Assembly (NCBI GenBank): GCA_947483075.1
Contig: CANKLE010000004.1
Coordinates: 124,001 to 188,000 of the forward strand
Direction of reading: 5' to 3'
DNA length: 64,000 nt
DNA from: Flavobacteriaceae bacterium
GTDB lineage: Bacteria; Bacteroidota; Bacteroidia; Flavobacteriales; Flavobacteriaceae
The notes under the pieces: model-generated
What the model saw: only the letters and a program-made list of their open reading frames with translations
Told to the model about the DNA's origin: nothing
The model's database searches: none
Translations under genes and position numbers: made by a program
Part shown: positions 27,501 to 29,831 of the stretch, one piece after another
How the letters are laid out: every line of letters starts with the position of its first letter
How positions within the stretch are numbered: the first letter of the stretch is position 1

Positions 27501-28688
27501 TTATTCAACAATTTCTGTAACCTGACCAGCACCAACTGTTCTACCACCTTCACGGATAGCGAAACGTAATCCTACGTTCATTGCAATTGTGCTTAATAAA
27601 GATACATCAATCGTTAAGTTATCACCAGGCATAACCATCTCTACCCCTGTAGGTAAAGTAATAACTCCTGTTACGTCAGTTGTACGTACGTAAAACTGTG
27701 GACGGTAGTTATTGTGGAATGGTGTGTGACGACCACCTTCTTCTTTTTTCAAGATATAAACTTCCGCTTTAAATTTAGAGTGAGGTTTAACTGAACCTGG
27801 TTTGATAATAACCATACCACGTTTGATATCCTCTTTTGCAATACCTCTTAATAAGATACCTGCATTATCTCCAGCCTCACCTCTATCCAAGATTTGACGG
27901 AACATTTCAATACCAGTTACTGTAGAAGTTAATTTCTCAGCACCCATACCAATGATTTCTACTGGATCACCTGTATTACAAATACCAGTTTCAATACGAC
28001 CTGTAGCAACAGTTCCACGACCAGTGATAGTAAATACATCTTCTACTGGCATTAAGAATGGTTTTGCAACGTCTCTGATTGGCTCTTCAATCCAAGCATC
28101 AACAGCAGCCATTAATTCAAGAATTTTTGGAGTCCAAACTGGATCGTTATTCAATCCACCCAAAGCAGAACCTTGAATAACAGGACTGTTGTCGCCATCA
28201 TAATCATAAAATGACAACAAATCTCTGATTTCCATTTCTACTAATTCTAACAATTCCGCGTCATCAACCATATCCACTTTGTTCATGAATACAACGATTC
28301 TTGGAATTCCAACTTGACGTCCTAAAAGGATGTGCTCACGTGTTTGTGGCATTGGTCCGTCAGTTGCAGCTACTACTAAAATAGCACCGTCCATTTGAGC
28401 AGCACCTGTAACCATGTTTTTTACGTAATCCGCGTGACCAGGACAGTCAACGTGTGCGTAATGACGGTTAGCAGTTTCGTACTCTACGTGAGAAGTGTTG
28501 ATAGTAATACCTCTTTCTTTTTCTTCTGGAGCATTATCAATTTGATCAAATGATTTTGCTTGACAGTAACCTGCATCAGACAATACTTTAGTAATTGCTG
28601 CGGTTAAAGTGGTTTTTCCGTGATCTACGTGTCCAATCGTACCTATATTTAAGTGTGGTTTGGAACGATTAAAGGTTTCTTTTGCCAT
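27501..28688 (-). CDS. tuf: Elongation factor Tu
   Basis: [59 protein letters not shown]. Confidence 0.99.
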
Positions 28689-28747
28689 TTTTACTTAATT
28701 TAATCTTAGTTATTATTTATTAGTGTTCAAAAATTCTTTCAAATTTG

Positions 28748-28819
28748 AGCCAATGACGGGAATTGAACCCGTGACCTCTTCCTTACCAAGGAAGCACTCT
28801 ACCCCTGAGCTACACCGGC
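28748..28819 (-). tRNA. tRNA-Thr (GGT anticodon)
   Basis: Minus strand GCCGGTGTAGCTCAGGGGTAGAGTGCTTCCTTGGTAAGGAAGAGGTCACGGGTTCAATTCCCGTCATTGGCT. Confidence 0.96.
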
Positions 28820-28870
28820 AGTTTTCCTTGGAAAAAACAATACAATACTCCTACTGCTTGTAACTCCTTG

Positions 28871-29163
28871 TATTCTTGCATTACCTCCCTGCGGTCGCAA
28901 TCCTTTGCTGTTTCAGGATTACCTCCCTGCGGTCGCAATCCTTTGCTGTTTCAGGATTACCTCCCTGCGGTCGCAATCCTTTGCTGTCTCAGGATTACCT
29001 TCCTGCGGCGGCAAACCTTTCTATTCTTGGATTACCTCCCTGCGGTCGCAATCCTTTCTATTCTTGGATTACCTCCCTGCGGTCGCAATCCTTTACTGTC
29101 TCAGGATTACCTCCCTGCGGTCGCAATCCTTTACTGTCTCAGGATTACCTCCCTTCGGTCGGT
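28871..29163. repeat. Tandem array, eight units of ~37-38 bp with core TTACCTCCCTGCGGTCGCAATCC
   Basis: Core starts at 28881, 28919, 28957, 28995, 29032, 29069, 29107, 29145 (spacing 38,38,38,37,37,38,38). Linkers come in variants (TTTGCTGTTTCAGGA, TTTGCTGTCTCAGGA, TTTCTATTCTTGGA, TTTACTGTCTCAGGA). The core is imperfectly palindromic (GGATTACC...GGT-CGC-AATCC). Confidence 0.97.
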
Positions 29164-29168
29164 CATCC

Positions 29169-29187
29169 CGTAAGGGGGACCCTTACG
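29169..29187. repeat. Perfect 8-bp hairpin (CGTAAGGG-GGA-CCCTTACG)
   Basis: Directly read; sits between the tandem array and the long palindrome. Confidence 0.85.
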
Positions 29188-29251
29188 ACGTTTTTGTCTT
29201 CAAATTTTTATTAAAGCGAGCTTTATAAAAATTTGGCGACAAAAACGTTGT
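29185..29251. repeat. Long imperfect palindrome abutting the tRNA-Tyr 3' end
   Basis: Left ACGACGTTTTTGTCTTCAAATTTTTATTAAAGC vs reverse complement of right ACAACGTTTTTGTCGCCAAATTTTTATAAAGC: three mismatches and one indel over ~32 bp, near-zero loop. Confidence 0.93.
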
Positions 29252-29331
29252 GGGGAGAGCAGGATTCGAACCTGCGAAGTTCACACAGCAGATTTACAGT
29301 CTGCCCTCGTTGGCCGCTTGAGTATCTCCCC
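29251..29331 (-). tRNA. tRNA-Tyr (GTA anticodon)
   Basis: Minus strand GGGGAGATACTCAAGCGGCCAACGAGGGCAGACTGTAAATCTGCTGTGTGAACTTCGCAGGTTCGAATCCTGCTCTCCCCA; long variable arm. Confidence 0.97.
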
Positions 29332-29362
29332 AACTTTTATTATTGTTTACTATGCTTTTTAG

Positions 29363-29436
29363 AGCCGGCGGAGGGACTCGAACCCACGACCTGCTGATTA
29401 CAAATCAGCTGCTCTAGCCAACTGAGCTACGCTGGC
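29363..29436 (-). tRNA. tRNA-Thr (TGT anticodon)
   Basis: Minus strand GCCAGCGTAGCTCAGTTGGCTAGAGCAGCTGATTTGTAATCAGCAGGTCGTGGGTTCGAGTCCCTCCGCCGGCT. Confidence 0.97.
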
Positions 29437-29446
29437 ATATACAATA

Positions 29447-29473
29447 AAAAAAGTCCGCTATTTCTAACGGACT
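29447..29473 (-). terminator. Terminator downstream of hpf
   Basis: Minus strand GTCCG-TTAGAAATAG-CGGACTTTTTTATT. Confidence 0.7.
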
Positions 29474-29474
29474 G

Positions 29475-29504
29475 CAAATGTATATCATTTTGTTTTTTAA
29501 TCAA
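29475..29504 (-). promoter_or_regulatory. Promoter of the tRNA(-tuf) transcript
   Basis: Minus strand TTG-N20-TACATTTG (CAA at 29502-29504 and CAAATGTA at 29475-29482 on the plus strand). Confidence 0.7.
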
Positions 29505-29528: not shown

Positions 29529-29831
29529 CTAAATATGCTCTCTTGTTTTTTCTTTTCTTTTCATTACCAAACGTTCCAAAGATTCGGTTGCCAACTCCAC
29601 TGCTTCTTCAAAAGTTTTGCACTGTTTTTTAACTATGAAATCATCTCCAGGTACATGAATTTTTATTTCTACTGTTTTATTTTCTTTATCACTGGTGTTT
29701 TCAACCTTTAAAAAAACATCTGAAGCAACAATTTTATCGTAGTACTTTTCTAATTTACTCATGCGTTCTTGAACAAATTCTACCAATTTTCGGTCAGCTG
29801 TAAAATTAACCGCGTGCACATTAACTTTCAT
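29529..29831 (-). CDS. hpf: Ribosome hibernation promoting factor (HPF/RaiA, short form)
   Basis: MKVNVHAVNFTADRKLVEFVQERMSKLEKYYDKIVASDVFLKVENTSDKENKTVEIKIHVPGDDFIVKKQCKTFEEAVELATESLERLV. Confidence 0.92.
   Translation of the reverse strand: MKVNVHAVNFTADRKLVEFVQERMSKLEKYYDKIVASDVFLKVENTSDKENKTVEIKIHVPGDDFIVKKQCKTFEEAVELATESLERLVMKRKEKTREHI

Follow-up and report, generated by a model that had tools for sequence, protein, structure and literature searches.

A tandem hairpin array behind tRNA-Tyr in a Flavobacterium tRNA-tuf operon is an amplified part of a candidate three-hairpin RNA element

In Escherichia coli the tyrT operon contains 178-bp repeats, the rtT RNA (RF00391), transcribed directly behind tRNA-Tyr; the units are copies of a structured RNA and can carry the tRNA 3' end. 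Other repeats and RNAs have related features. REP, BIME and REPIN sequences are short imperfect palindromes, sometimes in arrays; E. coli 3'ETS-leuZ is an RNA derived from a tRNA spacer/trailer; and integrative elements are associated with att duplications at tRNA 3' ends. Here we analyse a hairpin array in a 64,000-nt stretch of DNA from a Flavobacteriaceae bacterium (the window), where it forms part of an element of three hairpins, P1, H2 and H3. The tyrT repeat (rtT RNA) is its nearest known analogue, and both show tandem units behind tRNA-Tyr. Unlike tyrT units, those in the window begin without a tRNA 3' end, which is seen at some other loci (second tRNA-Tyr, Pro), and the Flavobacteriaceae element further differs in its three-hairpin covarying fold, its copies at many tRNAs and its units consisting of H3 alone. 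The rtT model (RF00391) gave no match at gathering score in the window or in nine related loci, nor any up to E = 1 in the nine loci. An earlier note on this DNA had allowed that the array might belong to a known named repeat family; Rfam 15 at gathering score returned only tRNAs in the window and the element loci, with no family match to the element. One own-genome locus (L192, 2628-2696) has a strong match to the DUF805 RNA motif (RF03081), about 1 kb away and unrelated to the element. Weak matches to sroB, plastid and group I intron families were below gathering score, mostly overlapped tRNAs or leaders, and were rejected. We found no description of the element in the open-access literature.

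The spacer and its hairpins

The minus-strand order of the operon is tRNA-Thr(TGT), tRNA-Tyr, array, tRNA-Thr(GGT), tuf, tRNA-Trp, secE, nusG, rplK, rplA, with tuf and the other protein genes named from their sequences. The array sits in the spacer 28820-29249, between tRNA-Tyr and tRNA-Thr(GGT) and upstream of tuf, rightly called an unusual place within a tRNA/tuf operon by the earlier note. When 28820-29249 was scanned for intrinsic terminators (a G+C-rich hairpin with a U-run after it), the minus strand gave no terminator-like site, in keeping with read-through to tuf. The features are as follows.

29250-29331, minus strand: tRNA-Tyr(GTA), directly 5' of the P1-H2-H3 element (ARAGORN, Rfam RF00005)
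29188-29249, minus strand: P1, a long A/U-rich hairpin with apex AAAG-CUCG-CUUU (MFE fold, covariance model R2, covariation, arm complementarity)
29169-29187, minus strand: H2, hairpin CGUAAGGGUCCCCCUUACG (fold; covariation, 98% of cells paired)
29142-29168, minus strand: ancestral copy of H3, GGAUGACCGACCGAAGGGAGGUAAUCC, the eighth unit of the array, its sequence unlike the other cores (CTCCCTTCGGTCGGTCATCC) (covariance-model match, fold, homologues in 60 aligned sequences)
28878-29132, minus strand: seven further H3-like hairpins with short linkers, GGAUUGCGACCGCAGGGAGGUAAUCC and variants (TRF, exact cores, fold)
28881-28903, 28919-28941, 28957-28979, 29032-29054, 29069-29091 and 29107-29129: six identical array cores
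28995-29017: diverged array core with four mismatches
28820-28877, minus strand: remainder of the spacer up to tRNA-Thr(GGT) (sequence)
28747-28819, minus strand: tRNA-Thr(GGT) (ARAGORN)
27501-28688, minus strand: tuf (EF-Tu) ORF, 395 aa, the gene downstream in the same transcript

TRF reported a 38-bp tandem array of 7.5 copies at 28880-29161, and the array, noted at 28868-29163, comprises eight hairpin units with a period of 37-38. Together, TRF and the exact cores confirm the eight-unit array that had been described between tRNA-Tyr and tRNA-Thr(GGT); its linker families and the segmental duplication read from them also hold. A sub-pattern of the core occurs seven times against 0.03 expected, so that a chance origin of the array is excluded. 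The main unit folds at -11.4 kcal/mol on the transcribed strand (z -3.75) versus only -5.4 kcal/mol on the opposite strand (z -0.76), in keeping with the claim that the units form hairpins on the transcribed minus strand. Folded whole, the spacer between the two tRNAs has a z of -8.2.

The array is the amplified third hairpin of an element, P1-H2-H3, that is about 107 nt long and begins right at the 3' end of tRNA-Tyr. Covariance model R2 matches this element at 29142-29248 with 97.6 bits, and the seven units besides 29142-29168 are slightly altered copies of H3. The earlier note saw the array itself and missed the larger three-hairpin element running from the tRNA 3' end, its presence at other tRNA genes and its occurrence in many genera. 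Across congeners H2 is of the type GUAAGG...CCUUAC. The general form of H3 is GGAU-N-stem-GA-stem-loop-stem-GA-stem-A-AUCC, in which the base, GGAU/AAUCC, is almost invariant and the upper part covaries; in the ancestral copy, which folds at -10 kcal/mol, G.A mismatches occur in tandem and one more, which is conserved, lies above GGAU/AUCC.

A purine tract, AGGGAGGT, had been noted on the transcribed strand. It is indeed in each unit, as an array binding a protein or ribosomes through AGGGAGGU tracts, for example a Shine-Dalgarno mimic, would have it. The tract fails as a conserved feature, however, since most relatives have GAGCGAAGCGAGGT or another paired sequence; it lies in the paired 3' arm, where relatives have GAGCGAAGCGAGGU and similar sequences, and we consider such a binding array very improbable.

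A search for the core, which the earlier note had proposed, found it (up to 3 mismatches) nowhere in the 2.4-Mb own genome outside the array, and among 149 congeners only in G094 and G129, in the same spacer in both. This bears on the suggestion that the array is REP-like, that is, a palindromic repeat of REP/REPIN type moved by a RAYT (Y1) transposase. The units do resemble REP, BIME and REPIN sequences in being short imperfect palindromes arranged head to tail, but the core is not dispersed, copies across the family are located at tRNA 3' ends, and a search for the RAYT domain Y1_Tnp (PF01797) gave no match in the own genome, the E. coli control being positive. A REP/RAYT origin is refuted for the own genome unless a diverged RAYT exists, and we regard it as hardly credible.

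Covariation and strand selection

RNAalifold, applied to a sequence-only alignment of nine loci, gave the same three hairpins; double changes were seen in 14 of the 35 pairs. Covariance-model alignments showed double changes in 31 of 35 pairs with 24 loci and compensatory double changes in 30 of 35 base pairs with 60 loci. In the 60-locus alignment 93.4% of cells were paired, whereas shuffled alignments reached 70.6% and slid ones did not exceed about 60%; the covariation score was 0.559 versus 0.154. Because these alignments were fitted to structure, an alignment-free test was added, in which the first 14 nt behind tRNA-Tyr were scored against the downstream region. The mean score was 22.3 with the own locus and 14.2 with foreign species, and the own-locus complementarity of the P1 arms was reached in 0 of 5000 permutations. 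Compensatory covariation across the alignment, the generic mark of a structured RNA, is thus present.

Read on the tRNA-sense strand, the 60 loci hold 80 G.U pairs against 12 A.C mismatches, with an excess of G.U in every helix, an excess partly favoured by the covariance-model alignment and standing at just 4:0 in P1 in a Watson-Crick-only count. Such a predominance of G.U over A.C points to selection on the transcribed RNA. Tandem GA/GA mismatches, which would read TC/TC on the opposite strand, are kept in 41 of the 60 H3s, and the apex loops CUCG/CUUG and UUUA/UUCA covary. The G.U excess, the stability of H3 on the transcribed strand and the retention of GA/GA together argue that pairing is maintained in RNA of the tRNA-tuf strand. 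P1-H2-H3 is a well-supported structured RNA candidate, unlisted until now, that is linked to tRNA genes, mostly tRNA-Tyr.

Distribution across genomes and tRNA genes

The genome scans scored only some of the candidates, 9-25 per genome in the first round, so that all distribution counts are lower bounds. Covariance model R1 matched at least 27 of 149 congeners, most strongly at tRNA-Tyr, and R2 at least 105 of 400 Flavobacteriaceae genomes and at least 84 of 238 genera; the same spacer, read in about 90 congeners, had the block of about 107 nt at the tRNA-Tyr 3' end in roughly a fifth. In each of the 28 best related loci the element is situated behind the tRNA-Tyr gene of the tuf operon. Outside the family, matches came from at least 3 of 196 genomes sampled in the class; they follow tRNA-Ser(GCT), Ser(TGA) and Gly(GCC). 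In the own genome, significant or near-significant matches follow tRNA-Tyr, Arg(ACG), Arg(TCG), Ser(TGA) and Val(TAC), with two copies at Val(TAC), and further copies elsewhere lie 3' of second tRNA-Tyr genes and of tRNA-Pro. A search with a 21-nt apex motif, made without the model, led to the same tRNA-linked sites and to some unrelated one-mismatch matches. The pattern GGATSAN{6,26}KTAATCCTG was discarded as a means of finding dispersed H3 copies, its matches being mostly unlike the element and a few of them genuine.

Many species are without the element, which is accordingly dispensable. On a tuf tree its presence is clustered (6 changes versus 13 when shuffled, in a non-random sample whose loci were chosen partly by element matches), as expected for inheritance with repeated loss. 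We take the element's place behind tRNA-Tyr in the tuf operon to be ancestral for Flavobacteriaceae, with loss in many lineages. A structured RNA candidate absent from Rfam is found in about a third of the sampled Flavobacteriaceae genera, and its location is one of the most conserved bacterial operons. In most other genera of the family the operon order is Thr-Tyr-Gly-Thr-tuf, with tRNA-Gly(TCC) between tRNA-Tyr and tRNA-Thr(GGT) (L161, L164-L188); this tRNA-Gly is missing at that position (28747-29436 in the window) in every Flavobacterium locus read.

Where the element follows a monocistronic tRNA gene (Ser, Val, second Tyr), a hairpin resembling an intrinsic terminator precedes or forms P1, and H2 and H3 would therefore be transcribed there only upon read-through. 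Behind tRNA-Ser at L192, L200, L206 and L226 the U-tract of the tRNA terminator is complementary to an A-tract preceding a second hairpin, an arrangement as if two convergent terminators faced each other around the P1 apex.

Amplification, origin and possible role

Tandem arrays occur in 17 of 49 tRNA-Tyr spacers. What is repeated is H3 with a linker (units of 36-62 nt), H2 and H3 together (41-53 nt), or P1-H2-H3 in full or for the most part (105-131 nt). The own genome has a second H3-type array, of 3.5 copies of an 84-nt unit, at tRNA-Arg(ACG) (L190 1578-1867, C8), and at tRNA-Val(TAC) (L195 1500-1930, C12) it has two tandem copies of tRNA 3' end, terminator and element. In the tuf tree the array-bearing genomes G000 (the own genome), G129 and G094 form a supported clade beside G038, whose element has a single H3, and the array arose within this clade of three Flavobacterium genomes. 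Being nearly identical and strongly palindromic, H3 copies could easily be gained or lost, either on their own or along with H2 or with both P1 and H2; slippage or unequal recombination would have produced the 8 copies here and those of the two closest array-bearing relatives, with 5 (G129) and 3 (G094).

We consider it fairly probable that the array arose when H3, belonging to a conserved RNA element that is linked to tRNA genes and selected as RNA, was amplified locally in tandem. The copy number of H3 could still be a matter of selectively neutral slippage, with the single-copy element perhaps functional. The different copy numbers of close relatives, the linkers arranged in blocks and unit boundaries that vary by lineage are in line with such a satellite, to which we give somewhat less than an even chance; against it, H3 is complete in nearly all amplified units examined, and independent arrays are seen in many genera as well as at tRNA-Arg of the own genome. 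As regards the element itself, neutral copy number is compatible with amplification of a selected RNA. An isolated neutral satellite unrelated to any conserved element is unsupported.

The possibility was also considered that the units arose at the DNA level, as recombination products at tRNA 3' ends, with the hairpins being by-products or recombinase sites. The units would stem from att-like duplications or from unequal exchange in which the T-arm and H3 took part, and would be comparable to the tyrT repeats of E. coli. H3 resembles a T-arm, its invariant GG...AAUCC being the T-arm pattern, and at L130, L121, L124, L229, L122, L195 and L169 a copy of the tRNA 3' end lies after or before the unit. 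The copy (AATCCTGCTCTCCCCAC, AATCCTGCCACCCCGAC) comes after the unit at loci of second tRNA-Tyr genes, Pro and Val, and L169 has a modified T-arm copy ahead of the element; unequal exchange between T-arm and H3 would explain such units. L122 and L126 hold orphan arrays, tandem element copies with tRNA-Pro or tRNA-Ser 3' ends but without a whole tRNA gene in the surrounding 1.5 kb; insertion of an island into the tRNA gene may have displaced them. These tRNA 3'-end copies recall att duplications, but the tuf-operon element is inherited at one site across genera with covariation of RNA type. Moreover, hardly any tuf-operon locus has a tRNA 3'-end copy behind H3, P1 arms change fast and compensatorily, and the strand-asymmetric pairing points to RNA selection, so that we think a DNA-level origin unlikely. 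A match between H3 and its host tRNA at T-stem pair 51/63 holds at several loci (Ser, Pro, Gly, second Tyr) but fails at Arg(TCG) L189, Ser L206 and many tuf-operon tRNA-Tyr loci, and is no more than a hint.

Under the preferred reading of an amplified, RNA-selected H3, the most likely role is that of an RNA-level trailer/spacer element in the processing or stability of the tRNA-tuf transcript. Once RNase Z has cut behind tRNA-Tyr and RNase P before tRNA-Thr, the spacer would be released or retained in the form of a row of stable hairpins, and would serve in processing, stability or insulation of that transcript. An RNA released from a tRNA precursor could act by itself, a likeness by description only to 3'ETS-leuZ, from which the element differs in a structure conserved throughout a family. 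Much more speculatively, and with low probability, there may be a family-wide RNA system in which tRNA precursors with a three-hairpin tail carry H3 as an imitation of the T-arm base (GGAU/AAUCC with conserved mismatches), multiplied so as either to bind and titrate or to recruit a protein that handles tRNA (RNase Z, an enzyme modifying the T-arm, or EF-Tu) and coupling tRNA-Tyr maturation to tuf expression. With 1 to about 9 hairpins, the loci form a natural series in which the function of tRNA trailers could be studied, and they may place the old, puzzling tRNA 3' repeats of E. coli tyrT within a wider phenomenon.

At the head of the operon, a terminator-like hairpin with U7 (29452-29473, minus strand) probably belongs to an HPF/RaiA-like gene at 29529-29831. 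It directly follows a motif, TACATTTG (about 29474-29483, minus strand), that resembles the Bacteroidetes -7 box, and the tRNA-tuf promoter and this terminator seem, from their sequences, to overlap. This sequence is also found in congeners and near a second tRNA-Tyr in L120.
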